Of a stretch of DNA of 64,000 nucleotides, positions 1,903 to 63,946 are shown piece by piece. The notes under the pieces are model-generated. The model saw nothing but the letters and a program-made list of their open reading frames with translations. It did no database searches and was not told the origin of the DNA. A program made the translations under genes and the position numbers. The DNA lies in the NCBI GenBank assembly GCA_023078555.1, contig CM041196.1, positions 12,480,985 to 12,544,984 on the forward strand, in the 5' to 3' direction. The stretch is from Ulva prolifera (Eukaryota > Chlorophyta > Ulvophyceae > Ulvales > Ulvaceae). Each line of letters starts with the position of its first letter. Position 1 is the stretch's first letter.

Positions 1903-3256
1903 TCAATCGGCTGACGTGGCACATTGACAGACGTGGCACATCGGCGGATGTGCGATGCAAGAGCTGAGACAGCAGCAGGGGGCGGCACCTTCGGCATCCA
2001 GCAGCTCACAGAAGAGGTGGTGGTGTAGTGTCGCCGCGAGGAACTCGAGCGTGAAGGAGGTGATACACTCCGCGGAACTGAGGGTCGTGCTGAAGGACAG
2101 CTGCTTCCCCGGCGCCACCTCGTGTCGCATCTGAGTGAACCAGCACACGTCCCCGGCGCCCAGGCCGAGCTGTGCCGCCACGGCCGACTTGTGGTCCCGG
2201 ACGAGGTCGATGACGGCAGGTTGCCATGTGGCAGCACCTGTGGCCACACCCATGGAGCGGAGGGACGTGCTGACGTCGACGGATGCTGATCGAGGCGACG
2301 GCAGGGCGGCTCCTGCTGCGCAGATGTGGTGGAGGAGGAGCGGCTGGCAGGCACGGAAGGAGGAGATGGGTGGTGGGATGACGGTGGGGAGGCCTTGTAA
2401 TTGCGCTGGGGGTGTGGCTTCGATGACTGCTCTGCTGGGGCACGGGGGTGATGGGAGAGTAGTGTCTAAGGGGTGAGTGGGCAGCTGCCGGGGGCTGGAA
2501 CAGTGTGATGGCTGTGGAGATGGATGTTGTGATGCGCTGTGGGGCTCCGGAGAGGCACAATTGTGGGCTTTTGTTGATTGATTACGGTCGTGGGCTGCTG
2601 TGAGGACAGTGTTGAGAGCAGCTGTGGCGCAGGTGCTGCGCTTGGAGATGACGGTGCGCTGTTCCTTAAGGCTATTGCAGCGATTTTTCGCCGCATCAAG
2701 ACGCTCTTGTGCAGCATTTACCTGTTGCTGGGCTTGCGCACGGAGGTCCTGCAGTCCACGCGCAATTGTGGCATGGGGGCGCGCGGTCGCGCTCGACACG
2801 GGTACTCTATACGCAAGCAGAAGGCGCAGACCAGCCCCCAGGACAGCTCCCGCGATCAGTGCGGTGTTCGTATGTATCTGGGGCGTGGACTCGAGATGAG
2901 GACATTGCCCACTGCTGCGGTGGCAGGAAGGCGCGCGCCTTCTGTTTCTGCCTGAAGCGGGCCTGCGCCACGCGATTCTTCTCTCGAATCCGCTGTATGC
3001 GGTCTTCCGCTGAGGATTTGCAAGGTGCACGTCGCTGTGTGGACGCGACGGGATGCACGGCACCACCTTCCGGAGTAGATGATTCGCCAAACGAGGTCTG
3101 TAAGCTACTTTCGGGGAGATCGATGTCCATCAAGTTCAGCTCTCCCACAAATTGAAAGAAGTCGTCATCAGTCTGAAGGACTGCGGCATGCCCTATCGAC
3201 GGAGTGAATTCCGTGATCAGCGGAGGAGGAATCAGCGCTGCCTGAGAGTCACACAT
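1903..3256 (-). CDS. bZIP transcription factor 1 with conserved C-terminal domain
   Basis: DNA-binding transcription factor, expected in the nucleus. Exon 1 is 2939-3256 (ATG ending at 3256) and exon 2 is 1903-2748 (TGA 1903-1905), about 387 aa. An acidic N-terminus is followed by the basic region EKNRVAQARFRQKQK (residues ~90-106) with the invariant N-x7-R. A coiled coil follows with d positions Ala, Ala, Ala, Leu, Ile and a positions Val, Leu, Cys. The intron donor is best placed at AAG|GCGCGC, a GC donor. This puts the zipper in register and matches the homologous donor of bZIP-2. After a Pro/Ser-rich linker comes a C-terminal domain with GDVCWFTQM and STTLSSAEC, shared with the gene at 15624-16949. 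The zipper is weaker than usual, with Ala at several core positions. An in-frame TTG upstream (3352) is not used as the start. A further small intron near the 3' end is possible. Confidence 0.75.
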
Positions 3257-4817
3257 GAGGTGAGCTGGTTGCTTGCTACACTGAACAGAGGCTACTACAG
3301 ATAGCGTGGTCGCAGATATCTCGGAGTTCCTGACATGTGAGAAGGCTCCCAAGCGAGGCAGAGAGCGCCAGCTTTCTCATCAGACAGTTCGCGCCTGAGA
3401 AGCGCAGTCAGGAATCACTTACACGGTGGATCAGTAAACGTGTGCGGGCGATCTGGAACGCTGGAACGATGACATCGGTCATGGCCGCGTGAGCCCGAGG
3501 CAGTAAGCCTTACGCACTTGACCTTCGGCGAGGTAATCCGCACAGCCCAACTGGCCCAAGCCCTGTTCACCACGGCCACAAGTGCACGTATGCGCACTGT
3601 CCATCCAATTTGACAAGATACAATGGCACCACGGCATATTGGCGACGCTCTCTGCCCGTTTGCAGCAATTCCTCAAGTCCTGGTTTCAATCGAGCACTGG
3701 CACCTCTCACGATTGGACGCTTGGACAATGGGACGCAAGCAAATGGCTGCCATACGTCATTATGCTTCAGACGAGTGAAGTAAAACGCCTTGGTCGTGAA
3801 GTAAATACATCCTGGGACAACTGTGTGCCCCGTCCTTCGACATTGACCTCTTTCAGTCGAGCATCGGTACCGCCTACGTCGGCCTCTTGCTGATGCTCTG
3901 CCGGCTCAATCTTCACCACGGCAGAGCAATACGGGCAGGAATGCATGAACGCGTATGATGTGGGAACGTCTGTAGCAAGGCCACTAGCCGACTGACACCT
4001 GTAATGCCCCGAGACGGCTCCGGCAAGCCAGTTGAGCCCAGTCAGCATGGGTAGTGCGCTCGAACGAAATGTACCCTAGCTAGGCCTAGCAGCAAAGAGC
4101 ATCATGAGCAGATGCACACTCCAGCAACTAGATGGCGCACGCTACCATGGCACCCTGTAGCAGAGCTGCAAAGATACAATCCAAAAGGAAATTTACATGG
4201 CACATAGACCACAATATGCTTTGCATGGATAGAAGGCAAGGTTGCTTACTGGACCAGCGTCTCGAGTACCGTATAGTACAGGTACTCATAGCCATGCTCA
4301 CATCATCTCAGCATGTTGCTCCACCTGCTATGTGCACCATCTCTTCTCGCCTGACGGCATTATTTCTACAACTTGTACCGGTGTTCCCCGAGGCAGTCCA
4401 TACACACACACACCATGCACCCGCATGTCCAGCAGAGGTGCATAGGAGCGCCAATGCACGCCACCGGCTCCACATGTTGGCAGGTGCCCCACCCACCCCT
4501 CACACCACCCTGCCCTGCGCGCGGCACACGGCCTGCTGTCCGCCACACCATCACAAAGCGGCCGGCCTCCATCCAGGTCAGGTGCCAGCAGCTCAACAAA
4601 GCCTCACAAAACATCTTGCATGGATCGGCATGATGCAGCCGGGCGCCGCTCCGCGGATCGGCCCCACCAACCGCACCATGCCGCATGCACACCTGATCGT
4701 ACGGCGAACGTGATACCTGAGCCGCACAGCATTGCCCCTCCCATCGCCTGTGCCCTCAAGCCACACAGCACGTGATCGCGAGGCGCCACCTGGAGCTCCA
4801 GCTGCCGCAGAAGAACG

Positions 4818-4848
<31 letters not shown>

Positions 4849-5126: not shown

Positions 5127-6138
5127 AGTCAATGTGCGACGCTCGCATGCAGCGTCGCCATATTTCAGTTCCCCAGCGAAACCGTGGTCAAAGGCACCAA
5201 AGAATGGAATGCAGTGGATTGCCCTGCCCCGCTCGACCTTCAGTGTAGGTTGGGATTGTAAATCGTGTCCCATGACAGTAAAGAGGCGTCTCAAATCGAA
5301 AAGTGGTCATCGTCTCAGTCAACAGTCACACCTGCAATGTTAACACCACCCCCCAACACCCCCAGGCGCAGCCATCATCGCCCTGCAGAACGCTCGCAGC
5401 AAAGGCGCAACGCAGACTGGAAAGCAAGTCATTTCGCCACCTGGCCCCTTCTGCCTGAGGCGGAGGCCCTGCCGGGATGTGGGCGCTGGCAGTAGCTGAT
5501 CGCCCGCAGCGTATGCTGGGCATGCTGTGGGTGCTCAGGATCTGCGGCCTCCGCAATGCCGAGGGGGCCCGGCCGCCTCGTGGCAACACCCGCGGCGGCA
5601 TTGCTGCAGCCGTCGACCGTGTGTACTCATGCATGGTGTTCATGCATGCTCCTTGGGTGACACCGACTCAGAAGCGTGACTTCTGGACGGCCGAACTGTG
5701 GCCACAGAAAACGAGGAGCCCTGCACCACAGAGTGCTGTGATGTGTGCGGCGTGTGCGTGGAGCAAAGGCAGACTGAGCGGCCCATGTAGACACAAAATG
5801 TCTCGTGGGGGGGAACACAGGCTGGTGCTGCAAGGTGACAGAAACGTGAGGTTTGTCAGCGGAAGGCGGACCGGACAACACAGGGCCACCACAGGTGGAT
5901 GCGGCATCCTGCGCAAGGACGACATGCATGCATGCATCAAAGCTGGCCAAGTGAAAGGAGGTGCAACGTCTGCAGCAATTGCCCCATGCATGCGGCGAGC
6001 GCGCCGGCAGTGCGCGTACCGTGAACAGCACAAAACGGCGTCGGGCATCACGAGGGGGGCAACGGCAGGTAGCAGGTAGGGTCACCCTAGGTGCACTCTA
6101 TCACACCAGCATGCATACAAACGCCAGGTACCATGCGT

Positions 6139-7562
6139 CTATGGGCTGAGAGCAGGGCTGTGAAGGGAGAGGGGGGCAGCGGGGCCTACCTTGGTGACGG
6201 GCCGAGCCTTTCCCCAGTCTGCAACCACGCGGTCTTGGAGCACGCGCATCGTGACGCCGAACAGCACGAGGAGCGGAGCTAGCAGCATCTCAACGATCGT
6301 CCATCGATGCCGCGGCGATGTGCCGGCAACCATGGAGAGGGCCAGCCGGTGCAAGAGGACGGGGGTGGGAAGGTGGTACTGGCCTCGCTTCAGGCCTCGG
6401 AAGAGGAACTCTGCCACGACAGTGGCACTGTGGACCTTTTCCCGCGTTTGCTGGAACAGCTGGTGGACGATGCTGGCCTTGTCTTCGTTTTCCTTCTGCA
6501 GCCCGGGCGTCTGGGTGTCTGGGGGGTACCCGACGGAGACCGTGACGCCTGTGCCCACGAGTTCACTCCTGAGGGCGTCGGCGAAGTGTCTGACGGCAGC
6601 CTTGGTGGGGCTATAACTGGTAAATCCTGCCATCGGACTTACGTATATCATGGACGAGACGAAGGAAATGTGTCCAGAGCCTCGTTCAAGCATTCGCGGT
6701 ACGAGTGCGTGAGTGATGTTGTAGCAGCCGAAGTAGTTGACCTGCATCACACTCAGCGTCGTGCCGAGGCTCCGCGAGAATCCTGCGCCAGAGGCCAGGC
6801 CATAACAGACACGTACGAGGCTGTAAACACGAGCATGCCGTTTGACTCGAGTGTTACAGATTTCACGTGATACGCACCTGCATCAATTCCTGCGCCTCTT
6901 CGAGCGTCTGATTTACAATCAGCTTTGCACAGCCCCGACCAGCATTGCAGACTGCAACGTCTATCGGCCCATAGGCGTCTTCTACATGATCTATAATTGC
7001 TCGGAGCCTGTGCCCATCGCACACATCCGCGGGCACAGCATGAACCACTCCGTCTGGATCCACTTCCTGCACTCACGGATCGTTGCGTGCAAGATGAAAG
7101 CAAACAGTACTGATTTCTTGTAGCTCAATCAACAGAGGAACAGTGCCCGCAGCGCAAGGTGTGCGGGACTGCAGCCTAGGCCCTTGCCGAGCAGTACACG
7201 GCACGAGTCCGCAAGCTAGCCCAGCTAGCTGATCTTCACAACAAAAACGACACACGGATATTAAGCAGCCATCAACTGCTTCCTCTTTTTCCTCGACTAT
7301 TCCAGGGACGGCATGTAATCTTACTGAAGGTTGCTGTCACACCTTCAACAGCTCCTGCGCGGCTCGAAGTTTTTGTGCGGACCTCGCAAGAAGCGTAACA
7401 ATTGCACCGTCAGTAATAAATAGCCGTGCTAATGCAAGGCCAATGCCTTCGGACCCCCCTGTGATAAGGACGTGCTCGCCCTTGAACGACTTGCGCATAA
7501 CTTCGATGTCAGCCAGGGGCGCTCCGTCTGGCAAATGGAAGTCTAAGAAGGCGCTGGATAGG
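6139..7562 (-). CDS. KDSR: 3-ketodihydrosphingosine reductase (short-chain dehydrogenase)
   Basis: NADPH-dependent reduction of 3-ketodihydrosphingosine to dihydrosphingosine, the second step of sphingolipid synthesis, on the cytosolic face of the ER. Exons: 7343-7562, 6878-7066, and 6741 down to the TAG at 6139-6141. Junctions are CAG/AAG|GT and CAG acceptors, phase 0. Visible motifs: nucleotide-binding TGGSEGIG, VCNAG, the catalytic pair SSM...YSPTK (Y-x3-K), and YPPDTQTPG, which is typical of this subfamily. A hydrophobic C-terminal segment (MLLAPLLVLFG) fits the family's membrane anchor. The first in-frame ATG ends at 7498, giving about 315 aa, close to the 320-332 aa of the yeast and human enzymes. 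A good acceptor at 7563-7565 means an upstream exon carrying an N-terminal anchor is possible. A strong donor (AAG|GTAGGC, at 6189) could also mean a short extra 3' exon. Confidence 0.85.
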
Positions 7563-9321: not shown

Positions 9322-9392
9322 GTTACAAAGGACAGAGGCCGGGCAGCGAGCCGTTGCCAGGAATACACACGCAAATCCACTCACGCAATCGT
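9322..9392 (-). mobile_element. LINE 3'-end fragment, minus orientation
   Basis: Reverse complement of the last ~70 bp of the LINE copies at 33.3 and 60.6 kb: the tail of the coding region, GGCTCGCTGCCCGGCCTCTG and TCCTTTGTAAC. It lies about 0.2 kb from the opposite-facing tail at 9086-9113. Confidence 0.7.
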
Positions 9393-13450: not shown

Positions 13451-13484
13451 CACTGTCCGACACTGTCCGACACTGTCCGACACT
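13451..13484. repeat. Tandem repeat, 3 x 10 bp plus part copy
   Basis: Three perfect copies of CACTGTCCGA and a partial fourth. Confidence 0.9.
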
Positions 13485-15623: not shown

Positions 15624-16949
15624 ATGCAGCAGTTAGAGATGTTATTGCGCAGCGACGGTCCAATGCATAGCGATCACCAACAGGGAATGTTCAGCATGTA
15701 CACCCCAGTCCAGAGCTCCCGGCTGCCACCGGCGCTGGGGACCTTTGAGGAGTTCATAGATGCCATCGTAGCGAATGACGAGTATGTAGAAGACGGCGAT
15801 CAACGGGCCAACCAAGGCAACGGTAATGCTGCAGCTACAGGACAGGTCGGACCGACAAACCAACCATCGTCTGGCCGATCCAGCGGTGACTCGGCTGGCC
15901 CTGGAGGCAACCATGGCAGAAGCTCAGTGCCAGACGCTACAACTGATGCCCGAGAAGCAGACGCTGACCGGATGCAGCGCCTGCGACAGCGGAATCGAGA
16001 TGCTCAAGCCAGGCATCGGAAGCGACAAAGGGCACGCATTCAGGCAAAATTTTATACCTTGTTGTGCTTCGTAGTTCCGCAGATGTCGCATGCTGCCGCT
16101 ATGCGTAGTGAAAATCGGCTGTGCTGGTGCAGGCACAGCAGGCTGGGCTCGCTGCCGAAGTGCAGGGCGTGCGAGATAGGCTCGCTCAGGCCGAATCTCA
16201 GCGGAAGAACCTCGAGGAGCATAGATCTGGGCTCCAGCAGCGAGTCAGTGTTGCGCTTGCCACGTTGAATGTGGTCAGAGACGTAATTCGGACGCAGCCC
16301 GTGAATTTGGCCCCACCACCAAAGCCGGTGCAGGCTCTAGTGGCGACCCCCGCGTCATCTCCGCGCCTTCACACAGTACCAGCGACTATTGTGCCTCGTC
16401 CGCTCAATACATTCCGGCATTGTGCCGCACTGGCGATTGAGCACATACAGGAGATGTCCGGCTTGGGCACGTACTCGCTGGATCTCAGTAAACGCTCTTC
16501 TCGCATCTTCACGGACCAGTATAAATCTCAAGAGGCATCTCGCACTGGTTGCTCTCCTGGCGACATCTGCTGGTTTTACCAGATGCATTTCGAGGTCGCC
16601 ACTGGCGTCAGGCTGTCGCTCAGCACAACGCTGTGCACCAAAGAGTGCCTCGCCTCGCTCGCCCTGAACTTCCTTGCCTCCGGCCTTCAGATGGGCCTTT
16701 CCGCTGCACTAGACTGCAACGTCACAGGTGAGACTCTGGCTCTGGCTCCCCTTGATGTCTCGCTCTCATGCCTGCTGAGACCCCACCTGCATGCGTGCTG
16801 CAGCCCCAGAGGCGCTACCGCTGATCAGCAGTTCGTCCGTGCCTTTCTCATGTCCACAAGCAGTGCTGGTCGTCATTGCCCATGCCAAACCCGTCAGGTG
16901 TACCCTGGAAACTGTGCCCGCAGCATCTGTGGAAGTGAGTACAGTTTGA
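15624..16949 (+). CDS. bZIP transcription factor 2 with conserved C-terminal domain
   Basis: Paralog of bZIP-1. Exons: 15624-16031, 16133-16727, 16804-16949 (TGA 16947-16949), about 382 aa. The N-terminus is acidic (TFEEFIDAIVANDEYVED). The basic region QRNRDAQARHRKRQR (~122-136) has N-x7-R. With the GC donor AGG|GCACGC the zipper falls into canonical register: Leu at N+18, then Val, Ala, Leu, Leu every seventh residue. The second exon carries the shared C-terminal domain, GDICWFYQM and STTLCTKEC, then ALNFLASGL. The second intron has donor ACAG|GTGAGA and an acceptor preceded by TGCATG. The last exon adds about 48 residues, not clearly conserved in bZIP-1. Length and layout match bZIP-1 (387 aa). 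An acceptor-like ATGCAG at the start leaves an upstream exon possible. Confidence 0.78.
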
Positions 16950-26442: not shown

Positions 26443-27579
26443 CTCCCGCGCCGTGCGAAATCGATCTCGGCCTGTGGAGCTGTTTGCGAGACGGGCCGGT
26501 CGAGTCTGTGGCCACAAGTGCTCGCGAGCGCGCGCGCCGGCGGCGCGCGGTGCTCATCCAAAAGCACGCGCATGTGTGGAGTGCTGCGAGCGCATGCATG
26601 TGATGTGCTGGATCACACGGGCGCGTGGCGGCAAACCTAGCGCGCCGGGCAGAATGGCCTCGAGGCGCTGTACACTGAAACGGGGGAGCGGGCGGGGGCG
26701 TGTGGCATCGCATCACAGGGGCCGGGTCCCACGGGACAGTCACCTCAGAGTGGCAAGCCAGGTCGAGCTCCGCAACGGTCTGGGGGATGGAAGCAGTACG
26801 AGGGGGGCGAATGAAAGCGGGTCGCCCGGAATGGGGCGACCGAGAATGTGTGGCTTGAGGGTGCCGCCCGGTGGCTGCGATTGTGAACCGGCGGCGACTA
26901 TGGTGCCGCACCCGGCAACATCGTCAAGAAAGGGATGTGTTTGAATCTGTGCTTGCGTGGGGTGGCTGTGTCTGTGTCTAACGAGCGGAAGAGTTGCATT
27001 GGTGGAACATGCATCTGCATGGAGCTTGTCATCAGCTCGGGCCGTAGGCTTCTTCTGGTGCCCGTTGGCGTCGTTGGTTTTATAACTATCACTATTATTC
27101 GTATTGATATTCTTTCGTTGATTCAGCTTTGATCGAGCGATGAGCCGTGCACGTGTGGCCTGGGCTGGGTCCTGGTGGTGCTAACAACCCGTCGTGGCGC
27201 GCCGACGGCGCGCTGCGGCCTGTGTGTGCTGAGCTGGCCGGCGCTTCTCAGCCGCATGTGGGTAGGGCCGAAGTGACGTTCATCGCTGGCGCTGCGCCAT
27301 CGTTTTCTTTCTACTATTTCTGCGGTCTATGCATAGGACATATATATGAATCAGGGCGAGTTGAGAGTACTCAGCGTTGTTGCGTCTAGAGGTAATGATG
27401 CCCACATTGTATCCAGGCAGACCGGGGCCCTGCAAATGTGTGCAAAGACTGCATCTGATGCGACAGGTGCCGCGGGCGGCCAGCAGCCCCATGCAAGAAC
27501 CCAGTTCCATTACAGCCATGTGGCAGCTCACTGCTGCACACCAGCGGCATGAACAGACACAATCTGGCGGAACCCGCTT
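26443..27579. other. Intergenic, no gene seen
   Basis: Downstream of family X paralog B. It begins GC-rich, then becomes AT-richer (e.g. TATAACTATCACTATTATTC near 27080). No domain or repeat was recognised. Confidence 0.5.
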
Positions 27580-27930
27580 TTAACACCCGCATGTCAGAAC
27601 GGACCAGTGCAGGTCCAAAAGCCACCCATGGTGTTCGAAACAAACAAAAATTGTCAACGCTGCACTCTGACCAACATTTTCATGAAACATCTCATTCATC
27701 AAGTATTGGAACGTGCTAGGCGCTACACATAGACCCACTGGCATCACAAACTCGTAGTTTCCATGTGAACGCAGATTCGGATACATATCCACACGGCCTA
27801 TTCTGATACCAAAATCGTTCATAACACACCGGTACAGTCGCATGGTCCCACACAAACATCAGCAAGCATCTGGCTCCAGGCTCTTCGGCACTGTGGCCTG
27901 GCCATCCAGTTGCAGGCCGGCGCATCAGCG
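27580..27930 (-). mobile_element. Ty3/Gypsy-like retroelement fossil (reverse transcriptase fragment)
   Basis: A minus-strand fragment resembling the middle of a Ty3/Gypsy reverse transcriptase (YEFVMPVGL...APSTFQYLMNEMF, the counterpart of the usual YEFLVMPFGL...APATFQ block). It is short and clearly broken, with no LTRs or complete polyprotein seen. It lies 3' of the kinase gene on the same strand. The degree of decay suggests an old insertion. Confidence 0.55.
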
Positions 27931-28369
27931 TCAAACAGGGACAGCCTCCTGCGATATCACAGGTGTGCATGTCAGCGATGGCACGGTTCTGTGCTGTGCC
28001 TGAGCCTCCGCCAGTGGCTGTCCTGCTGTGCCAGGGTCCTCTTCTGGTTTGTCACAAACTTGTGACGTCTCAGCTGTGACCTGGGGCGTCCCCCCGCCCG
28101 GCATCGGGACCACTGTGTTGGCGTTTCGGTGCTTGCTCTTGTCATGGCTCCAGTCCACTTCCACTTCGTGCGATACTCCAGAGGATCGACGCTGCAAATA
28201 TACTCCCCTTGCTTTCGTAAAGTATTAAAACAGAAGCAACGCAACCAGGCGGCCCGTTTGCGAGGCCCAAGGCCTAACTGCTTTCTCCACTCAGCCCGTG
28301 TTCTGGTGGCGTGTATGCAAACACGATTATACCAATAGGTTCTGAGATCCAGTGGCAACAAGAGCAAAC

Positions 28370-45300: not shown

Positions 45301-45612
45301 AGGGGGCGCATACACACAAAATCTGCAACTAAGTGATAAACGTCACAGTTTTAGGCAAGGCGTGGAGCGCACTTCGGCGAAGATGAAAGAGAACGCGGGG
45401 AAGGTCAAGCCGTTCACAAACGATCCTAACAGGCCTAAGAATAATGCGAGGTAGTCTTTACCGTCAATCCCTCGGTATAATGAGAAATACGGGACTACGT
45501 TGTCTTGCACATCATCTTTGGATTTTTCTGCCTTGGCTGAGCTGGGGTCGACACCCGACTTGACTGGTTTCTCCGCAGCTGCCGTGCCATTCTCAGGCTT
45601 GTCCTTCGACAT
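36349..45612 (-). CDS. Full-length ABCB (P-glycoprotein/MDR-type) transporter 1
   Basis: ATP-driven membrane exporter of lipids or xenobiotics, TMD-NBD-TMD-NBD. Fourteen exons: 45373-45612, 45045-45174, 44544-44695, 43939-44297, 43099-43339, 42273-42512, 41282-41680, 40512-40856, 39903-40154, 39008-39329, 38272-38468, 37780-37972, 37058-37365, 36349-36849. All phases agree, giving 1292 aa. The N-terminus (MSKDKPENG) is hydrophilic. NBD1: [45 protein letters not shown] charged Ala/Glu-rich linker follows. NBD2: [40 protein letters not shown]. Both ATP sites look intact. The intron after NBD1 (...AVMQ|) starts with GC (CAG|GCGCGC). Compared with ABCB-2, it has an extra intron at 44298-44543 and a different position near GFWYGG. 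It is head to head with ABCB-2. Confidence 0.92.
38832..38885 (+). repeat. Dispersed repeat, 54 bp, matching 24047-24100
   Basis: It shares GGAGTTGTCAATG and CCAATAG and ends in TTTAC, with about 8 mismatches over 54 bp to the 3' part of the SINE-like element near 24.0 kb. It lies in the intron 38469-39007 of ABCB-1, antisense to the gene. Confidence 0.6.
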
Positions 45613-47836: not shown

Positions 47837-50800
47837 ATGTTTAAAACATCAGAAGAAACAAAATGTTCGAACAAAGATGAACAAGCCACGGACTTAGATG
47901 GGCCTGATGCGGTATCGTATTTTTCACTATTCAAAGGTGCTGACGCCTGGGACGGTCTGGCGATCGCTTTCGGGGTTGTTGGCGCAGTCATCAATGGGGC
48001 CACGTTCCCGCTGTTTTCCTTTTATTTCGGAGAAGTGCGATCAATCGCCCCCCTGCCGTGTTTGCTGTCAAGATGTGTGCGCGACCTGCATCCTGGGTCT
48101 GCAAACTGGACAGAGCAATAATGCAGGTCATTGACGCGTTGTTCTCTAACAACATCTCGACAGAAATCAGAAGCGCCTCATTGGCATTCTTGGCTGTGGG
48201 CGGCCTTTCTCTGGTCATGTCAATCCTGGAAATGGGGCTGTTCATTTGGTCAGGTAAATGCATGCTGCTTCTGGTGTGTCTATACCAGATCAAACCAGAG
48301 TCTGTCACTTACTGCACCCGGGCCTGTGGTCTAAAGTGCTTTCGGTAGTGGTGCATGCTCCCCTCCGGCTGGCTGGAGTCCATCAGCGCAGCAGACACGA
48401 CCAAACAAACCTCTGCACCGCCTTGCTTGCCTCCTGCGTACATTCATACCTCCATCGAGCCTCTTCGCACGTCCGTGCCACATTCGATGCTTCTTCTTGC
48501 ACCCTTAAACCACCTCAATACAGCGCTGCGAAGTCGTACAGACCTCCCATGTAGCAGCCCTCTCTTGCTGTCCAGACTCCTGTCCCCTGCCAGCATCACA
48601 CACCATGCGTGTGCAGGTGTGCGCCAGACGGCGAGGCTACGCCAACGCTTCCTCCACGCCGCCCTCGCTCAAGACATCCCCTTTTACGACACAACGCTCA
48701 CATCCGGGGCCGTTATCGCCGGCCTCAATGTCGACTGCGCCGCCGTCCAGGCCGCGACCTCCGAGCGCGTCGGCCACGCGATCAACAACCTCACGCAGTT
48801 CACGCTCTCGTTCGCGCTCGCCTTTGCGCGCGGCTGGAAGCTCTCGCTCATGATGCTCGCGGTGTTCCCGCTGCTCGCGGTCGCCGGCGCGATCATGGCC
48901 AAGACGGCCACGTACGGCACGCAGCGCAACGCGGCCGCGTACGCGGCGGCCAACAGCACGGCCACGCAGGCGATCGCGCACATCCGCACCGTCGCGGCGT
49001 TCCAGGCGGAGGACACGATACTCGGCCGCTACGCCGCGATGCTTGTGCGCCCGACGCGCGTGGCGGTGCGGGTGTCGACGATGGTCGGCTCTGCAAACGG
49101 CTCCGTCAATGCGACCGTCGCGATCTCGTGCGTTGCTGCCTTTGCTGTGGCTAGCTGCCTAAGGAGCAGTGCACCTGCGTGCGTGTGGCCGCCAGCGTCT
49201 GTTACCCTCGCCGTTCCTCTCATGAGCTCAAATTAGCGACCTCTTCACTGCCATGCATGGGGGGAAAGCACACGCACACGGTGCTGCCACTACAGTTTCG
49301 ACCTGCATCATGAGCTCAAATTTGAGGTCGCCGACGTGCTCAGGCTTGCAGGTACGCAGTCGCATTTCTGTACGGTGCGAAGCTCGTTCGAGACGAGGAC
49401 TACAGTGCCGGGCGGGTGATCCTGGTGATGATGTCGATGCTCATCGGCGGCTTCGCTCTCGGCCAGGCCTCGCCCGACTTTGCCTATTTCGCCGCCGGCC
49501 GGGAGGCAGGGGCGCGGCTCATGAGCGTCATCAACCGGCAGCCAGAGATCGCGGTGCATGGCGGGAAGGTCCCTGATGAGCCCATGCATGTGCTGCTCCC
49601 ACCCGCTGCTGTGAGTGCTGAGCATGTGCTACCAAACCGCTGTGATTCAAAGCCTAAGGGAACCATGGTCTTCCTGAATCATAGTCTGGAGTTGTGTTCT
49701 CTTTGTTTACATACTGCAGTGAAGCTGTCAAACAGTGGAAGGATGGACCCGGCAATGCGGATACTCAGCCATGTGGGGACACGGTGACGCAGGCGCCTGT
49801 ACGCCGGCGTGCTTTTCCACATGCTGTCTAGGCTGTGCTGCAGCTCCTGTGGCGCGGCCCAGATGCAGCTCCCATTCTCAGCCTGGCTGCGGCTTTCGTG
49901 GTGAAGCACCTTTCCAGCTAGCTCAGCTGTGGTTGCTGTCGCCCAGCCCCGCCAAGGCTGATGTCGCCCCAGGCCCGCTGTGCCTCGCTCTGTCTTGCTC
50001 AAACCTCGCACCGTGATTCCCTACGAGCCGCCTAACACGAGGACATCTTCAAACATACATGCAGGGCGAGGTTGAGGTGGAGGATGTTTCGTTTGCGTAC
50101 CCCGCACGCCCCGACGTCCCCATCTTCTCCAGCCTCACCCTCCACGTCCCCGCCGGGCAGACGGTGGCGCTGGTGGGGGCGTCGGGCAGCGGCAAGAGCA
50201 CCGTCATCCAGCTGCTGCAGCGCTTCTACGACCCTGCCACCGGCCGCATCCGCGTCGACGGCACCGACATTCGGCAGCTGTCGCTGGAGTGGTACCGCAA
50301 CCACGTGCGCCTCCCCCATGCTGCTGTTGTGCAGAGTGGCCATCAGTGCCATACAACCTCAGCAGGTGTTAGTCTGGGAATGCACTGTGCGTGCCCCTCA
50401 CAACAGTCATCCGGGCACTGCTCTTGTTCCAGCATTGGAGATGATCCCTGGAGGTCTGTGTCCTTGCGTAGGCCGGCAATGCATGTGGGACGAAACATGC
50501 GGGTACATGTGCCCTGCTTCTGCGTTGTCGACCGTATCTGAGTGCTCTGGTGGATGGTTCCTTGGCATGAACCCCTTGCTGTAGTCGTCTTCCAACATAA
50601 TCCCGTCATAGTGATCTGAAAGTGCCCTGCCTGCGCGTGGCTGTTGCAATGAGCTATCACATCTTGGTGTAGGTGGGCCTTGTCAGTCAGGAGCCGACGC
50701 TATTTGCTACGAGCATCCGAGAGAACATTGGTATCGGCCGCGAAGGCGCCTCCGACGGAGACATCACTGCTGCCGCACAGGCCGCCAACGTCCACCGCTT

Positions 50801-53800
50801 CATCCAGAAGCTTCCCGAAGGCTACAGCACGCACGTCGGCGAACGGGGGACGCAGCTGAGCGGTGGGCAGAAGCAGCGCATCGCGATCGCGCGCGCGCTG
50901 CTTAAGAACCCGCGCCTGCTGCTGCTGGACGAGGCGACGAGCGCGCTGGACACGGTGAGCGAGCGCCTGGTGCAGGCGGCGCTGGAGCGCCTCGCGCAGG
51001 GCCGCACCTCCGTCGTCGTCGCCCACCGCCTCTCCACCATCCGCAACGCCGACAAAATCGCAGTGCTGCAGGCACGTTTACCCCTCATACTCCTTCTGTG
51101 TGCACGGCCGCAGCCGCTCTGAAACGGCATCGGGTAATCGACCCAGGGCCTCATGCATGTTGCCTTCACAACGCACCGTGCATTTGCGTTGGCGTGTCTG
51201 TTGGCAAGGGCTCCTGCGGCACATACATCGACACTCACCCGCGCCTTGGCCACAAATGGACCTGATCAGCATCCCGAAGTAGTAGCCCATGCAGGAGCCC
51301 TGCTCTCGCCGTGTCAGCCACATGCTATCCTGCTGTACGTCCGCCGCCCTGTTGACTCACTCCCGTGTGTGTATGCATGCTTACATAGCCATGACCATTT
51401 AAGTGTTGACAACGGCAAGTGTGTAGGGCGGCGCGGTGGTGGAGCAGGGCACGCATGAGGAGCTCTACGCGGTGCCGGGCTCGGTGTACCGCTCCCTCGT
51501 GCAGCTGCAGGAGCAGGCCACCGACCGCCGCGGCGCGCTGTCCGCCACCGCCACGGCCGACCTCGAGGCCGCGGAGGCAACTGACGACGACGACCTTCGT
51601 GTGGGCGCAACTGGCGATGCCGCCGCCGCAGGTGCCACGGCCCCCACCGAGCCGCGGGCGCCTCCTCGCGGAAGCGCCACACGGGCGCTCCTCCACAAGC
51701 TGCGGCGTGGTGGCAGCAGCAGCGTGGAGCGTCAGGGCAGCGGCAGGCCGGACGTGGCTAAGGGGGTGCCTGCAGACGACGCACAGGGCAAGGTGCTGCC
51801 TTCCAAAGTGAAGGGCGGAGCACAGGGGGGAAAGGAACAGCCGAGTAGCAAAAAAGATGCGCCCGGAGGTGGAGACGAGGATGAGGGTGACGAGGAGCTG
51901 GTGTGCCTTCATGTCGTATTCCGTGCCTGCACACTGTGGCTGCATCGTGTGCACATCCTGCTTTGAGGAATGGTGTGCGAAAGATGTCCCGGCTTGTATC
52001 GGCTCGGCATGTCAGAAAACACGTGTCTCTTGTGGTGCAATGCTGCGTTCGCAGGCACCTGTATGGTTGTTTTGTTCAAGCACAATCAGGCTAGGCATAT
52101 TTAGCTTTTTATCGCAGCTTGTGTACATGTATGGTGCTGCCCCCACCGCTGTGAATGCCATTGTGCCATGTCCACGCATCGCAGAGCTTCCGAGCCTCCT
52201 TGGGCATTGCAGACTAAATGCGTGAGCCCGCTGCGATGTGCAGGCGCCGGAGGAGAAGGAGGTCAGCATCGGCCTCTGGCGGCTGCTGCGCATGAACCGC
52301 CGCGAGTGGCCGTGGCTCGCGGCCGGCGCCCTCGCCTCGGCCTGCATCGGCACCGTGCAGCCCGTCTCCGCGGTGCTGCTGTCGGTGATGACGGACCTGC
52401 TCACGCCGGACGAGCCCGCCTCAAACGTTCTCCGCTTCGCGATCTACTTCTTCGCACTCGCGGCGGCGCAGCTCGTCTGCGGCGGCGTCCAGGTGCGGCA
52501 TGTGCCTGGGGTGCCTCAGTCATGAAGTCTGCATTGGAGCGGCAAATTGACCATGTGTGCCAAGAGGTGGGGGGTGTCGATGCCGTCATTTCGCGCCCGC
52601 CTTCCCGCAGCGTCCGGCTCCACAACGTCCGCGGGCCGGTCATTTGCGGAGCAGCCACAGCAGGAACAGGCGTCACAACCACAGCCCCCCCTTGCCATGA
52701 TAAGGCCCCGCATACACAGCCAAACCCGCAGATTCGCTTGACCACGGGATCGACCTCTGCATGCATGTGCAGGCGCTCATGTTTGGCCTCGTCGGCGCGA
52801 ACCTTGCGGAGCGCGTGCGCGTCCTCTTCCTCCGCGCCGCCCTCCACATGGAGGTCGCGTGGTTCGACGTCGACCTCAACAGCAGTGGCTACCTGGCCGC
52901 GCGGCTCGCGGCGGACGCGCCGGCCGTGCGGGGGGCCGTCGGCGACACCCTCGGCATCATCGTCCAGAACGCGGTCACCCTCGTGGTGGGCTTCACGATC
53001 GCGTTTGTGAACGGCTGGAAGATGACGCTCGTCGTGCTGGCCGTGCTGCCGCTGCTCGGCTTCGCATCGTACGTGCAGACTCTGGTGTACACAGGTGGCG
53101 CCCCCGGCAACGCTCGCCTCGTCACCCTCTGCTCTCCAGAATGTACAAATCAGTCTGATATACACAGGTGGAGCCATCGGCACATGTGCCACTCTCTGGT
53201 GTCCACAGGTGGCGCCTGTGTCGCAGCGGACGGTGCTGCTTCCTTTCGGTGGCTCGAGGTCTGACATTCATGTGAGTGAGGCCGCGTGCCATGGCACCCA
53301 CCGGGGGTGGGGTCAGGCTTACTTGGCATGAGGGCTGGCCCTCTGCCGAACATGGAGTGTCTCATGGAGATAGTGTGAGGATCCTGGGCCGGTCTGTTGT
53401 GCCAGGCCCCCGGTCCTTCAGCATCATTTCAGGCAGGGCCTGAGGCTGTCTTTCTCCGCTGCTGCAGGCACTGCAGGGCTGAACGAAGATTCGTTCGGCC
53501 GCGCCAACCAGGCTGCACACGAGTCAATCCAAGCCATCCGCACGGTCCATTCGTACAATCTGCAGCCGAGCATCGTCGCCGCCTACAACGCCCACCTGGC
53601 GCGCCCTGTTGCTCGCATGTGCCGCGCCGGGCTGACGGCGGGTCTGCTGTTTGGGATCAGTCAGTTTGTGCTGTTTGCCTTCATGGCGCTGGCGTTCTGG
53701 TGCGTGTTCCCAAAAGTCCTCGTTCCTCGGTGAATGTAGGGAACATCTAGAGTGCCAAAAGTATTCACAAGCCCCCATCACTTCACTGCAGTTTCGTTTG

Positions 53801-55782
53801 CTGTTGACAGCATGTCATTAGAGGCGTTCAGCTTGCTAGCTTGCTGTTGCTGGGACAAGGCCCTTCTGCTCAAACACGTTCACGCTGTGCAAATTTGAAT
53901 ATTTATTTTTTTATTTTGCAACGGGCGACAATCGTGTCTATGGCAATACCGGCTTGGAGTCGACAACGGAGCCTGCTCGCATACAAGAGCATGATGTTGA
54001 ACAAAGGCCCCGGTGTACAGGTACGGTGGCAAGCTGGTAGATGAAGGGGAGATGGACATCGAGGCGATGCTCACGGTGTTCTACTCTGTCTTGCTGTCCA
54101 CCATGGGTGTGTCAGAGGCTCAGATGGCCTTTCCTAACGTGGCCAAGGGGAAGAGGGCGGTTGCAAGAGTCTTCCGGGGTGCGCCTCGCCACATCCGCAC
54201 TACTCATAGTTAACGATTTGCACGGGTAATATTGCTCTCTCTCCACACCACCTGGCAATCACTCGTCAGATCTCCAGCGGCATCTCCAATTCTGGCAGTG
54301 GTCGTCTGCAGACGGCCCAGCGTTCAGTAGCCCGGTTCAGTAGCCCGATTCAGACAACAGTGCGCTGCCACTGTTGCAGCGTGCATAGCCAGGCCGTGCG
54401 TGGAGACATGATGTCTGCCAGCGCTCACCTCCAGCCCGTCGCACGCACAGCCCCTGTTACCAACAGCTGTGTCATCTGCTGCTTGCATGTATGTGGTCAC
54501 AACGGACAGAGGCCGGGCATCATGCTGATGCTCGGAATCCACTCGCAAATCCACGCCCTCGTTCATGGCACCAGGCCGGGCACGAGCGCGTACCACAGCC
54601 CTGCCGGTGATTCCAACCAAAGATTGAAGCCCCGCACGGAGCACAATGTGTGCATGCATGCATGATGTAGCCCATTCAAAGGGATGCTGCCATCTCCAAA
54701 GCTCGGGACCATGTGTGTATTGACCCATGTGTGCCTTGACAATGCATGCCTGGGCGGCTGAAACAGTCTGTGCTGTTGCTGCAGTCATCGACCGCCCATC
54801 GCTCATCGACTCCAGCAAACCGTCAGGACTCCGACCTGACGATCCTGTACACGGAGAGGTGGCCCTGAGGGACGTCGACTTTGCGTACCCCACGCGGCCG
54901 GACGTGCCCGTCTTCCGCGGCTTCTCGCTCGTCGCGCCGGCCGGCCAGATGACGGCGCTGGTCGGCGAGTCCGGCAGCGGCAAGAGCACGATCGTGAACC
55001 TCGTGGAGCGCTTCTACGACGTCGACGGGGGGGCCGTGCTGCTGGACGGGGCGGACGTCAAGAGCCTCGACGTCACCTGGCTACGGGCACAGGTGTGCTC
55101 CGTGTGCAATAGATTTAGCGTTTTCGTCTTACTGGCTGTGCACCTTACCCGTCCCGAGCCTTCCACATGTTTTGTTCTAATGTTACAAGGGAAGAATTGG
55201 CGGACGGCCTCTACTATTGGTACACTTCGGAACACAGCTGCTGGTCAGAGGCGCTGTGAGCGTGGTGGATTGAGCACGCAGGTGGGCCTCGTGAGCCAGG
55301 AGCCGGCGCTGTTCAACGGCACCGTCCTGGACAACGTGCAGCTCGGCAAGCCCGACGCGACGCTGGAGGAGGTCATGGCGGCGTGCGAGGTGGCCAATGC
55401 TTGCGAGTTCATCGAGCGGCAGCCCGACAAGTACGGCACGCTGCTGGGCGAGGGCGGGGGTATTTCACTCAGCGGCGGGCAGAAGCAGCGCATCGCGATC
55501 GCGCGTGCCGTGCTGAAAGACCCGCGCGTGCTGCTGCTGGACGAGGCGACGAGCGCGCTGGACGCGGAGAGCGAGCGCGTGGTGCAGGCGGCGCTGGACC
55601 GCCTCATGTCGGGCCGTACGTCCATCGTTATCGCGCACCGGCTGACCACGGTGCGGCAGGCGCACAAGATCGCCGTGGTGCAGCGGGGGGTGGTTCTGGA
55701 GGAGGGCACGCACGACGCCCTCATGGCGCGCGGCGCCGCCGGCGCCTACGTGCAGCTCGCCCGTGCCCAGGCCGGCATGTGA
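47837..55782 (+). CDS. Full-length ABCB (P-glycoprotein/MDR-type) transporter 2
   Basis: Paralog of ABCB-1. Thirteen exons: 47837-48034, 48127-48253, 48617-49127, 49352-49589, 50065-50304, 50673-51071, 51427-51900, 52244-52492, 52773-53094, 53477-53699, 54021-54178, 54785-55092, 55282-55782. All phases agree, giving 1315 aa. TMD1 is encoded by the first four exons. NBD1 shows [37 protein letters not shown] and AHRLSTI. The linker exon (51427-51900) is long and charged, ending [12 protein letters not shown]2 shows [25 protein letters not shown] and AHRLTTV, then the C-terminus ARAQAGM, identical to that of ABCB-1. The intron after NBD1 has a GC donor (CAG|GCACGT). Using the nearby GT instead would shift the frame. 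Both ATP sites look competent. Substrate unknown; plasma-membrane export is usual for the family. Confidence 0.92.
54488..54655 (-). mobile_element. LINE fragment in intron 11 of ABCB-2
   Basis: The complement encodes [20 protein letters not shown] and continues to the CGGCCTCTGTCC tail, matching the 3' end of the LINE copies at 33.2 and 60.5 kb but more diverged. It is antisense to the host gene. Confidence 0.65.
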
Positions 55783-55860
55783 GGCTGTCATGCCGAGGCA
55801 TTAGGAGACGCGCTGGGTCGCCTTGCAACAGTTTGAGGGCGCCCTTTTCATAAATAAGAC

Positions 55861-58397: not shown

Positions 58398-60604
58398 ATG
58401 GGCATCTCAAACGCAGTTGCAGACTCTGGTGATTCTGATGGCCAACATGAGGCTGAAGCTGGCGGGAAGCACGTGGATGGTCCCCCTCCTGTCCCATTCC
58501 TTTTCCTATTCTCTGGGGCAGATGCCTGGGACGTCTTGGCCGTCGTGTTCGGGATTGCTGGAGCCCTGGCCAATGGCGCAACATTCCCTGCCTTTGCGTT
58601 TGTCTTCGGTGAGGTGATGCCCACCTCTCCATCTTGATGCGGTGAATCGTCCAGAGCAGTCCGGCGCCATTGCAATCACCCTTGCCCTTTGTTGTGGATC
58701 CGGAGCTATGGAACCATGGAACTCCCACCTGCACGATGCTCTTGCTGCAGGTCATTGACGCCTTGAGCTCAGATAACATCAAGGACGACATCATGGAGGC
58801 CGTTGTCCTTTTCCTTGCCATCGGAGGCATATCGTTGGTCGTGTCTACACTTGAGATGGGTCTACTGATCTGGTCTGGTATGATTTGGAGTCCCCCGCAT
58901 GGCATCCCTCAGCCAAATCCGCCTGCTGCTGATATGATGGGCGATGAGCTTGAACAGTTGTGTTGCTGTGGTGCAAAATTCGTTCACGCATCTGCGCCCT
59001 GTTCTGCCTACTGCACAGCCAGCACCCGAGGAATCGTCCCCACACATGACGATGGATACAGTACCGTATGTAATTTAAAGAGTCGTCAGAGTCTGTCCCC
59101 CAAAAATTTTTTTTTACGACATTAATTGCGTTGTCTCGTCCTGTACCGAGCAGAATCGACGACTGTGAGGTATATTGTCTCGTGAAGTCCCGGCTTCTCG
59201 TCGCTGTTGTGACGACTCGCAAAACAATGAGGTTGTGCCGTTGTCCCGTCCAAACTATCGCCAGTAAAGCACATGTACCAGAAGTATGACTTTCACAATG
59301 GGGCAACTCAGTGTTTTGCACCATGCAAGCACTGTCGCATTACACATCCATAACAGTCGCCTTCTGTAACCTCAATTGAACTCGGTTCGCTCGTAGCATC
59401 TGCTTGCTTGCGCCGATTCGGACAGAATGAACAGGTAGTGCAGTATCGGTTTGACGAGCGTCCAAACAATAGAATGCGTTTGTCCCATCCTTTACAGCAT
59501 GTGGCCGACGAACCACGTAAATATTAAGCAGCCCGTCTGTCCCACTAGCCACGTCAACGACGGCGCAAAAATAAATTTTTTTCCCTTCCGCGTCCAGTCC
59601 CAGTGAAACCCACAACGACTCTTGAAATTACATACGGTATGTTGATGCATGCACATGTAGCAGAGAAATCACAACGGGTCAGAGCTGCCAGCAACCGTCG
59701 CTCGAGAAATCATCTCAGGATCCTAGCAGCCACCACTGCCCACAGTTGCCAGTGCTGCGCCTTCAATCGCAACAGTCGCACAATCGGGCACGTTTACAGT
59801 TTCTCACATTCTAGTGTGACACTCATATATAAATCCTACCACAGGAAGGAGCCCGTGTGAGCAGCATGCCGAGCCCCGGATGATTTGGCGCAACCTCCTG
59901 CTGTATATATCTATATGTACATGATATATATACACAGGCATATGTACATGATATATATGGGGCGCCACGCGCCAGACGCGGCGCAGGCTGCGGCCCTGGC
60001 GGCGGCAGCGGCGCCAGGTGGCCAGGGTCCGGCGGGGCCTGGGGAGCAGGCCGCTGCCGCGCAGGCAACGGCGCTGGCGCAGGTGTTGAGGGCAGTGGCC
60101 CAGGAGAAACTGGGGGACATCATGTTTATGCCGCCGGGTGACCCTTTGTGCATAGGGGATGTGTCGGTTGTGAACCCCTGTGCTGGTTCCTATTGCGGCC
60201 GTGCGGCCCGCGAGGACGGGGGTGCTGCGGAGACGCGGGACGTGCAGAAACGCACTGCTTATCGGTTGTACGACCCTGATGCGTATAGTTTCGTGCCGTT
60301 ATCGCATGAGACGCATGGTCGCTTGGGACGGCCTGCCATGAATCACTTGAATCGGCTGGCGGAGGTTGCGTCTCGGTGTGGTAAGGTGAACCGTGCTTTG
60401 TTTGTGACGAATGCTCTGCGCCGGTTGAGTGTGGCGTTGTGCAAGGGGAATGCTCTTGTGCTCCGTGCGGGGCTTCAATCTTTGGCTGGCATCACCGGCC
60501 GAGCTGTGGTACGTGCTCGTGCCCGGCCTAGTGCCATGACTGCGTGAGTGGATTTGCGTGTGTATTCCTGGCGACGGCTCGCTGCCCGGCCTCTGTCCTT
60601 TGTA

Positions 60605-60677
<73 letters not shown>

Positions 60678-63600
60678 GATATATATCATGATATATACAT
60701 GATATATATCATGATATATATCCCGGAATTGTGCTCTGCGGACGTGCAGACGATCTGGCGCTGGTGCACAGTCAGCAAGCATTCATTGCACTGCATGCCG
60801 CTGGTCAACGTTGTACAGCGCGGGTAGCAAGCGATAGGGATTGTACATGCATTCGGCACCGTGCCAACATTCACAGCTGACTGCCGGGCAAGCATGCACC
60901 TTCCCCGGCCGCTGCTTAATTGCACCGGGGCCCACATCCGGGCGCGAGTCGGGCCGTCAATGACGGCGCCTTCCATCAAACTGCAGAATTGAGTGGCTGC
61001 CACGGCACCCATGTGCCATTACAGGTGCATGCATGTGTAGGCGTCCGCCGCACGGCCCGGCTACGGCAGCGCTACCTCGCCGCAGCCCTCGCGCAGGACA
61101 TCGCCACCTACGACACAACCCTGACTGCCGGCGCCGTCATCACCGGACTCAACGCTGATTGCGCCGCCGTCCAGGCCGCGACGTCCGAGCGCGTCGGCCA
61201 CACGATCAACAACCTCACGCAGTTCTTCCTTGGCCTCGCGATCGGGTTTGTACGCGGCTGGAAGCTCTCGCTCGTGATGGTCGCGGTCTTCCCGGTCATC
61301 GCGTCCGCCGGCGCGATCGTGGCCAAGGTGGCGACGGCCGGGGACGCGCAGAATGCGGCCGCGTACGCGGCGGCGAACGGCGCGGCCGCGCAGGCGGTCG
61401 CGAACATCCGCACGGTCGCGGCGTTCCAGGCGGAGGGGGTGCTGCTAGCGCGCTACAAGGAGCTGCTGGCGCGCCCGCGGCGTGTGTCTGTGCGCATGTC
61501 GGTGCTGACGGGAACTGCGAACGGCTCGATCAACGCGTCTGTGTTCCTGACGTGCCCCCCCCCCCCCCCCCCCCCCCCCCCTCAGGAGGCTCTTGTGAAA
61601 TAGAATGCATGCTCGAGTTCCTAGGTTGTGCACGCCTTGAATCAGCAGGCAGCTGCACAGCACTTGCTCGGCATGTGGGTGTCTGCACGGCACCTTTGGG
61701 CAACTGCACGACAGCCGGCTCCAGCTGCACCCATGGCCAGCCTGGGGGCCCCCACGGCACAACGTATGGTACTGAATACATCGGGGCTGGCCTGATTTAA
61801 GCTGTGGGCCAGCCTTGAACCTACAGCTGCATTCCACCATGTTTTGGAAAGGTTGTGCATCTGTCCTACAGAGTGTGTCATGTTTGCCATGCATCTACTG
61901 CACCGTGGAGGAATTGCCATGGACTTACATCAATATTAAGCGCGGTGCCAGCGCCCTCTTGAACGCTAACAGCACAGCAAGTCTTCCCTGTACATGTGGC
62001 TGTGGGGACACAGCATGGGATGAACGAGACCGCTGCCGCACAGTGCGATGCAAGTTCGCGGCATTATATTTGATGGGACCATGCATGCATATCGTCACAG
62101 GGATCGCATCGTAATTGTCCACTGCGCCCTCGTCGGCTCAATGCCACAGCTCACAGCCCATTCACATGCATGCGCGCTGCTGCAGGTACGGCGTCGCGTT
62201 CCTTTACGGGGGCGCCCTCGTGCGTGACGGCGACTACACGGCCGGAGTGGTCGTGCAGGTGATGACGGCGATGCTCATCGGCGGGTTTGCGCTCGGCCAG
62301 GCCGCGCCGGACTTTTCGTACTATGTCTCCGGCCGCGCCGCGGCCGCCCGGCTCATGCATGTGATCAATCGGAAGCCGCGCGCCGACGGCGGCGTCGTGC
62401 CGGCGGCCGGTATGCAGGCGCGCTCACGCCAGCCAGTGTCTACCTGCTTTGGGATCTTGAAGAACTTGTTGTGAAATGACGTACTTGTGTCAGCTTAGAA
62501 CGTGATGGCTATGGTCCTCGGCGACGTGGTCAGGTGTCCGAAGGTGACTCGCAACTCATCGTATCAGCCGCCAGGACCCCATCAGCCACTACAACTCCAT
62601 GACCACAAGTAGCCTTCGCTGAACACTTAACAAGTGCATGCATGCAGGGCGAGGTGGAGGTGAAGGGGGTGTCCTTTGCGTACCCCGCGCGCCCCGACGT
62701 CCCCATCTTCTCCAGCCTCACCCTCCACGTCCCCGCCGGGCAGACGGTGGCGCTGGTCGGGGCGTCGGGCAGCGGCAAGAGCACCGTCATCCAGCTGCTG
62801 CAGCGCTTCTACGACCCCGCAGCCGGCTGCATCCGCGTCGACGGCACCGACATCCGGCAGCTGTCACTCGAGTGGTACCGCAACAATGTGCGCTGTCTAT
62901 ACTTGTGCTGTACGTATGGACTCCTGAGGTGCCTTGCCGCTGCCTGACTCCGTTTGGTCTGAAGTGTTTTGTAGCTGGGAACCAGTGCTTCGTGGCCTCT
63001 GGTGGCCTGTGTTAGGCTCTGGTGACCTCTGGTCGCCTGTGATGGCCTGTGGTGGCCGCTGGTGGCCGCTGATGGCCTCTGGTGGCCTCTGGTGGCGCAC
63101 CGGCCCCACGGCTCCGATGTTGCGGTAGCTCTAGTTCCAACGCTGTGCTGATGTAAACCATGGCCTAGTGACTGGTAGACAGTCCTGGCTCCCCAATGGT
63201 AAATTCGTGTACCTATTTGACTGTATATACAGTCAAGTATATGTCCCTGTCACCGCCAACTCGACGTCTCCAAAATTGAAAAGGCGACACTTTTCTCGCC
63301 CTGACATTCAAGTTGCGGGGCTCATAAAGGCTTTGTATGTTGACTACGGTTTAGGGGTTAGGGGTTGGGGTCCACAGGTGGGCATGTGCAGGTCGGGCTG
63401 GTTAGCCAGGAGCCTACGCTCTTTGCGACGAGCATCAAGGAGAACATCGCGATGGGCCGAGAGGGGGCCAGCGACGATGAGATCAAGTCCGCCGCCGAGG
63501 CCGCCAACGCGCTGCGCTTCGTGAAACGGCTGCCCCAGGGCCTCAACACCCAGGTCGGCGAGCGCGGCGTGCAGCTGAGCGGCGGGCAGAAGCAGCGCAT

Positions 63601-63790
63601 CGCGATCGCGCGCGCGCTGCTCAAGAACCCGCGCCTGCTGCTGCTGGACGAGGCGACGAGCGCGCTGGACACGGTGAGCGAGCGCCTGGTGCAGGCGGCG
63701 CTGGAGCGCCTCGCGCAGGGCCGCACCTCCGTCGTCGTCGCCCACCGCCTCTCCACCATCCGCAACGCCGACAAAATCGCCGTCATGCAG
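58398..63790 (+). CDS. ABCB (P-glycoprotein/MDR-type) transporter 3, N-terminal half
   Basis: Third ABCB paralog, cut by the window end. Exons: 58398-58613, 58751-58877, 61041-61551, 62186-62417, 62648-62887, 63392-63790, all in phase, 575 aa covering TMD1 and most of NBD1. The N-terminus is [19 protein letters not shown]1 shows [37 protein letters not shown] and AHRLSTI. Exon lengths 127, 511, 240 and 399 nt equal those of ABCB-2, so exon structure is conserved. Two GC donors are needed: after GMQ (CAG|GCGCGC, 62418) and after AVMQ (CAG|GCACGC, 63791). Intron 2 is 2.2 kb, with an inverted-repeat element and a LINE inserted. A 27-nt poly-C run begins 3 nt after the exon-3 donor GT. Nothing in the visible half suggests a pseudogene. 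Confidence 0.9.
59064..59637. mobile_element. 574-bp terminal-inverted-repeat DNA element (MITE-like), TA target site
   Basis: The ends are inverted repeats of about 23 bp: left CCGTATGTAATTTAAAGAGT, and the right end in complement CCGTATGTAATTTCAAGAGT, with one mismatch, both then CGT. Each end is flanked by TA, fitting a TA target duplication (Tc1/mariner- or Harbinger-type). Inside, on the minus strand, is a 91-codon frame (59340-59615) reading [20 protein letters not shown], not recognised. It is inserted in intron 2 of ABCB-3. Confidence 0.75.
59950..60606 (+). mobile_element. 5'-truncated LINE in intron 2 of ABCB-3
   Basis: A ~200-codon open end of a non-LTR retrotransposon ORF: a Gly/Ala/Gln-rich stretch, then [49 protein letters not shown] and a stop at 60545-60547. 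The 3' UTR is about 60 bp and ends CCTCTGTCCTTTGTA, directly followed by the (TA)n tract. The ORF lacks its polymerase part, so the copy is not autonomous. It matches the copy at 32998-33325 almost perfectly over the shared part. Confidence 0.75.
60607..60722. repeat. (TA)n tract plus ATGATATATATC palindromes
   Basis: About 33 TA units, then repeated CATGATATATATCATG-type palindromes up to TATCCC. It starts exactly where the LINE 3' end stops, so the TA run may have grown from the LINE tail. Confidence 0.85.
61555..61581. repeat. Poly-C tract, 27 nt, at exon-intron border of ABCB-3
   Basis: The run starts 3 nt downstream of the GT of the exon-3 donor (AC|GTGCCCC), so donor positions +4 to +30 are all C. 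Confidence 0.85.
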
Positions 63791-63946
63791 GCACGCCGCC
63801 ACCTCCGTGCATGCATGGACCCGCGCCGCCATCTCCGTGCATGCATGGACCCGCGCCGCCATCTCCGTGCATGCATGGACCCGCGCCGCCACCTCCGTGC
63901 ATGCATGGACCCGCGCCACCACCTCCGTGCATGCATGGACCCGCGC
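63791..63946. repeat. Tandem repeat, 5 x 30 bp, at start of ABCB-3 intron 6
   Basis: Five units of 30 bp, each with GTGCATGCATGGACCC preceded by GCGCCGCCATCTCC (C/T and G/A variants). The array starts directly at the GC splice donor after AVMQ and keeps the upstream frame open for about 50 codons. Confidence 0.95.

Follow-up and report, generated by a model that had tools for sequence, protein, structure and literature searches.

Probable frequent use of GC 5' splice sites in a 64-kb window of the Ulva prolifera genome

The window analysed here (the whole 64,000-nucleotide stretch of Ulva prolifera contig CM041196.1, with a G+C content of 57.6% by base counts) contains models for three ABCB transporters, two bZIP proteins, a protein kinase and a short-chain dehydrogenase, and the gene models lie on both strands. 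Among the 37 curated donors of these genes, 30 are GT and seven are GC, a GC share of 19% (95% interval 8-35%), which has a probability of 8e-8 under a rate of 1%. When the donors are tallied by homologous position (19 positions counted by hand, comprising 14 in ABCB, three in the kinase, one in the dehydrogenase and one in bZIP), GC is found at four of the 19 (P = 3e-5 against the 1% rate). For comparison, a published average for GC-AG introns in plants is 1.2% (PMC6310983). The seven GC donor strings are all present at the positions given in the initial annotation, which had counted them among about 45 donors; the denominator used here is the curated 37. The likely reading is that these are ordinary introns of the major (U2-type) spliceosome and that the nuclear genome, which is moderately GC-rich, uses GC in place of GT at a considerable minority of its 5' splice sites. 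The GC sites are listed below, with a caret marking the exon-intron boundaries.

2749..2938, minus strand: bZIP1 GC-AG intron, 190 nt, phase 0 (AAG^GCGCGC ... CTGCAG^GAC), at the same codon position as in bZIP2, with an ungapped protein alignment
16032..16132, plus strand: bZIP2 GC-AG intron, 101 nt, phase 0 (AGG^GCACGC ... GTGCAG^GCAC), with Pfam and ungapped alignment evidence
26947..29375, minus strand: candidate GC-AG intron of the kinase, 2429 nt, phase 0 (CAG^GCATGT ... GCACAG^ATTC), the weakest of the seven
40857..41281, minus strand: ABCB1 GC-AG intron after the first nucleotide-binding domain (NBD1), 425 nt, phase 0 (CAG^GCGCGC ... TTGCAG^GCC)
51072..51426, plus strand: ABCB2 GC-AG intron after NBD1, 355 nt, phase 0 (CAG^GCACGT ... 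GTGTAG^GGC)
62418..62647, plus strand: ABCB3 GC-AG intron before NBD1, 230 nt, phase 0
63791..63796, plus strand: ABCB3 GC donor after NBD1 (CAG^GCACGC)

For gene modelling, the three ABCB loci were set against each other by blastn, and a protein-to-genome splice aligner served as a rough guide only. The junctions were read by eye in three frames, and the models were then fixed by script. The curated set comprises 36 complete introns and one donor without an acceptor in the window. Apart from the bZIP genes, the models are as follows.

36346..45486, minus strand: ABCB1, a full-size ABCB transporter; 13 introns (12 GT, 1 GC), frame intact to the stop, model without a fixed 5' end
47924..55785, plus strand: ABCB2; 12 introns (11 GT, 1 GC), frame intact to the stop, model without a fixed 5' end
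58506..63790, plus strand: ABCB3, first half, cut by the window end; five complete introns (4 GT, 1 GC) and one open donor
26880..30954, minus strand: protein kinase, partial; three introns (2 GT, 1 candidate GC)
6120..7057, minus strand: short-chain dehydrogenase, partial (Pfam adh_short), presumably KDSR-like; one GT intron

The spliced ABCB1 and ABCB2 proteins share 832 identities over 1292 aligned columns, with no internal stop across their 13 and 12 introns, respectively. In both proteins, NBD1 matches its NBD2 counterpart across the junction, and the 16-residue stretch after NBD1 equals in length that at NBD2, which is intronless there. Among solved structures, ABCB1 matches "ABC transporter B family member 19" (8woi) best; the sequence of this protein, which we take to be from a plant, aligns without a gap across the after-NBD1 junction, and the match does not place the organism. 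As the initial annotation had stated, the donor after NBD1 is GC in all three ABCB paralogs. The intron before NBD1, which had not been called conserved, has a GC donor in ABCB3 (62418) and GT donors in ABCB1 and ABCB2, a difference most simply explained by a change from T to C in ABCB3. A tract of 435 nt, identified by blastn, is 95% identical between ABCB1 (41253-41686) and ABCB3 (63386-63820), reaches across the after-NBD1 GC donor and stops a short way into the intron. In the exon before it, the closest pair is instead ABCB2 and ABCB3 (93% alike), and this change of the closest pair from exon to exon suggests that the ABCB paralogs are mosaics produced by gene conversion. The GC state after NBD1 in the three copies may represent one event. 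Right after the ABCB3 GC donor there is a tandem array with a 30-bp unit and 5.2 copies (63794-63948).

The two bZIP genes share a zipper-splitting intron with a GC donor, and the earlier observation to this effect was confirmed as one homologous intron at the same codon position. The spliced bZIP1 and bZIP2 proteins align with no gap across the junction (score 297), whereas unspliced bZIP1 scores 87, a low value for which the main reason is that the reading frame of the unspliced form stops within the intron, so that the entire C-terminus is missing. Splicing of bZIP2 raises its Pfam bZIP_1 score from 12.8 to 20.7 bits (+7.9), compared with 9.7 bits when the next in-frame GC donor is used. 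In bZIP1, a bZIP_Maf match of 14.9 bits appears only in the spliced form, and the predicted GC intron of this gene is backed by homology to bZIP2, not by its own bZIP_1 score. The Pfam cut-off is reached by no bZIP score in either gene. Both spliced zippers keep a hydrophobic a/d spacing in what we take to be the GCN4 register. The two proteins also have a conserved C-terminal block, GDVCWFTQMRHEVAPGKQLSFSTTL in bZIP1 (about 2155-2078, minus strand) and GDICWFYQMHFEVATGVRLSLSTTL in bZIP2 (about 16559-16635, plus strand); this block lies outside every Pfam match up to an E-value of 0.1 in bZIP2, the protein that was scanned. Thus several GC introns do lie at conserved positions, as initially noted, but this is weak additional evidence reflecting mostly shared ancestry, because the ABCB paralogs share a near-identical tract and the bZIP genes one homologous intron.

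Both classes of donors share one splice-site motif, mainly G(T/C)RYG at the donor and TGCAG^G at the acceptor. The 37 donors have G at -1 in 27 cases, G or A at +3 in 36, a pyrimidine at +4 in 32 (A in four) and G at +5 in 31, while the 36 acceptors have T at -5 in 33, G at -4 in 32, C at -3 in 32 and G at +1 in 30. In most eukaryotes, A is preferred at the donor position +4, and a pyrimidine is unusual there. In the GC donors, G at -1, a pyrimidine at +4, G at +5 and a pyrimidine at +6 are each present in 7/7, and all seven are in phase 0, compared with 26/37 overall (the phase of the open donor being its reading frame). The shared form AG^GCRYGY proposed for the GC donors does not hold for bZIP2, which departs from it at -2 (GG^GCACGC). 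The number of Watson-Crick pairs with canonical U1 small nuclear RNA (snRNA) ranges from four to seven at GC sites and from three to eight at GT sites. The sole sign of compensation in the GC donors is an excess of A at +3, found in 4/7 GC donors versus 3/30 GT donors (Fisher P 0.015, uncorrected and with paralogs counted separately). U12-type (minor) introns, whose donor consensus is RTATCCTT, were also considered and rejected, as no donor resembling it was seen by eye among the 37. The GC donors would have arisen by a T-to-C change at +2, for which the clearest case is the ABCB intron with GT in ABCB1 and ABCB2 but GC in ABCB3. They would be tolerated because G at -1 and +5 (7/7), together with the commoner A at +3, preserves sufficient base pairing to U1 and U6 snRNAs.

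For the six complete GC introns, all boundary shifts that leave the mRNA unchanged were listed, and none of the six gave a GT-AG intron; all six have an AG acceptor, which the curation sought. If some of the GC calls were wrong, with true splicing at GT donors and other exon ends, the GC share could be near the ordinary one, which we regard as quite improbable. The initial annotation held that nearby GTs break the frame or do not exist, and this claim fails: 35 to 83 in-frame GT...AG combinations were found within 120 nt of each of the six introns. When donor and acceptor matrices were used to rank all in-frame GT/GC...AG combinations within this distance (a mildly circular ranking, as the acceptor matrix was trained on the 36 introns including the tested ones), the proposed GC junction ranked first for ABCB1, ABCB3 (62418), bZIP1 and bZIP2, in the last case tied with the same GC donor joined to an acceptor 33 nt further on. 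The ABCB2 junction ranked third, behind two combinations of the same GC donor with acceptors deleting 26 and 28 residues. The kinase junction ranked fourth of 178, with GT combinations in second and third place, but in the other five introns no GT combination outranked the GC junction. For these five, the GT combinations among the eight printed per intron delete 7 to 65 residues, and none is present among the eight for bZIP2. It is also unlikely that most of the GC introns undergo regulated splicing or retention, with weak donors serving alternative splicing as proposed for mammals. This role is put forward in PMC2490688, which cites GC donors as being overrepresented among alternatively spliced genes in human, nematode and Arabidopsis; intron retention is reported as frequent in Emiliania huxleyi (PMC4028052), and the bZIP1 frame remains open for 43 codons past its GC donor. 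However, the GC sites in the window show no loss of strength relative to the GT sites at the remaining scored positions, and without splicing the bZIP products would lack the zipper and the ABCB products an intact NBD1.

It appears highly improbable that the GC donors belong to mobile introns resembling the introners of Micromonas pusilla CCMP1545. In that alga, GC donors account for 43.5% in introner-containing introns versus 9.7% in regular introns (PMC4815162). In the window, however, an all-against-all comparison of the 36 introns produced one similar pair, both with GT donors and sharing a dispersed repeat, and direct repeats at the intron boundaries were only slightly in excess (mean 3.42 versus 3.22, with 148/2000 shuffles as high). 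A different cause would be a shifted recognition code for 5' splice sites, in which the motif is mainly G(T/C)RYG and +4 is a pyrimidine; it would be read by U1 and/or U6 snRNA changed in the 5' or ACAGAG region, so that C at +2 is nearly neutral. We give this explanation a low probability; if it were true, the GC donors would follow from the altered recognition itself rather than from GC pressure. A U1 or U6 specific to the lineage may be indicated by the pyrimidine at +4 and the TGCAG^G acceptor. GC donors represent 3/6 in the four non-ABCB genes, with a G+C content at third codon positions (GC3) of 0.56-0.69, versus 4/31 in the ABCB genes with GC3 of 0.85-0.88 (Fisher P 0.07). Gene-by-gene GC pressure as a cause is therefore not clearly supported, and the absence of a concentration of GC donors in the GC-richest genes is in keeping with a shifted code.

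Several points weigh against a sizeable minority of GC splice sites in this genome. The reading is based on the genomic sequence of the window, and the junctions were curated as GT-AG or GC-AG, so that GA or other donors could escape. By homology the GC sites reduce to four positions, of which the kinase is one, and when the kinase is set aside, four of the six remaining sites fall in one gene family. The kinase donor at 29375 appears doubtful: its acceptor is off-consensus and 2.4 kb away, and the Pfam kinase score of 212.0 bits with the GC splice compares with 209.5 bits without splicing (a gain of 2.5) and 207.3 bits with a GT alternative. The ABCB3 donor at 63791 was assigned by homology only, with its acceptor beyond the window. 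The Pfam bZIP_1 score of bZIP1 is 11.0 bits spliced versus 14.4 bits unspliced. Furthermore, donor strength calculated from a matrix without +2 showed no significant difference between GC and GT sites (Mann-Whitney P 0.12). Without the kinase site and the open ABCB3 donor, the GC share is 5/35. Four GC introns are well supported, namely the after-NBD1 introns of ABCB1 and ABCB2, the ABCB3 intron at 62418 and the bZIP2 intron. Thus, the initial proposal of unusually many real GC-AG introns holds for most sites, with the kinase and 63791 as the weaker members.

Frequent GC donors are a known phenomenon in algae, and the present share, an intermediate one, lies in the published range; such documented cases reduce the surprise of the present result. 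In the haptophyte E. huxleyi, GC was found at 56% of 241 curated junctions and 61% of Cufflinks donors, and 13 junctions, nine of them GC, were checked by reverse transcription PCR and Sanger sequencing (PMC4028052). Like the window, this genome is GC-rich and combines GC donors with AG acceptors, and GC was assigned there only in the absence of another mapping. In contrast to the window, GC is the majority form in E. huxleyi (the probability of seven or fewer of 37 at 56% is 4e-6). The prasinophyte M. pusilla CCMP1545 has 25.6% GC donors (PMC4815162), a value inside the interval found here, but GC donors there are found chiefly in repetitive introner elements, and no such family is present among the 36 introns of the window. 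In Symbiodinium minutum, GC is about as frequent as GT, GA is also used, and AG is often followed by G (PMC4083563), whereas 25-74% GC or GA donors were reported for Symbiodiniaceae (PMC11453091). The window resembles these dinoflagellates in its frequent GC donors and in the G that usually follows the acceptor AG (30/36 here). It differs from them in the lower GC share (the probability of seven or fewer of 37 at 50% is 1e-4) and in having genes on both strands, those reported there being mostly unidirectional. All 37 junctions of the window are explained by GT or GC, the donors which the curation sought. A dinoflagellate source was considered and rejected: a search for relics of the dinoflagellate spliced leader with up to three mismatches produced no matches in the window, where such relics need not occur in 64 kb.

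The window probably adds one more to the few algal genomes in which GT is not near-obligatory. Gene finders restricted to GT will truncate or misframe genes here, including the bZIP zippers and the ABCB NBD1. Intermediate shares such as the 19% observed help to test GC content, introner spread and U1/U6 change against each other as drivers of GC donors.

The coding exons were also analyzed by codon shuffling for GC-donor-like motifs. The pattern GG-C-R-Y-G, one of ten tried, was present 30 times versus 45.4 expected (2/200 shuffles as low), and AGGCRYGY once versus 2.7 expected (42/200 shuffles), which is not clearly depleted. Exon depletion of such motifs is not relied on here because ten patterns were tried and the longer one was not clearly low. 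TGTAA poly(A) signals, which would hint at a chlorophyte, were present in one of five genes within 600 nt of the stop or of the model end and were uninformative. A tRNA scan and an Rfam scan at the gathering score produced no matches in the window. The ABCB NBD1 query matched 62 loci in viral_contigs at 30-61% identity, and these matches were not used as evidence.

On the plus strand at 31797-34048, a bromodomain open reading frame (39.6 bits) is followed by another with a sub-threshold match to the BET extra-terminal domain (22.2 bits; cut-off 24.5), and the two perhaps form one single-bromodomain gene. Two likely GT donors seen by eye in this gene (at about 32538 and 33977) are outside the set of 37. 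A dispersed repeat of about 320 bp is present at 33001-33321, 60293-60612, 54488-54646 (minus strand) and 9322-9393 (minus strand), with 96.6% identity between the two long copies. A 35-mer taken from this repeat matched nothing exactly in viral_contigs or genome_contigs. The copies at 60293 and 54488 are inside introns of ABCB3 and ABCB2, respectively, and the copy at 33001 lies between the bromodomain and BET exons.

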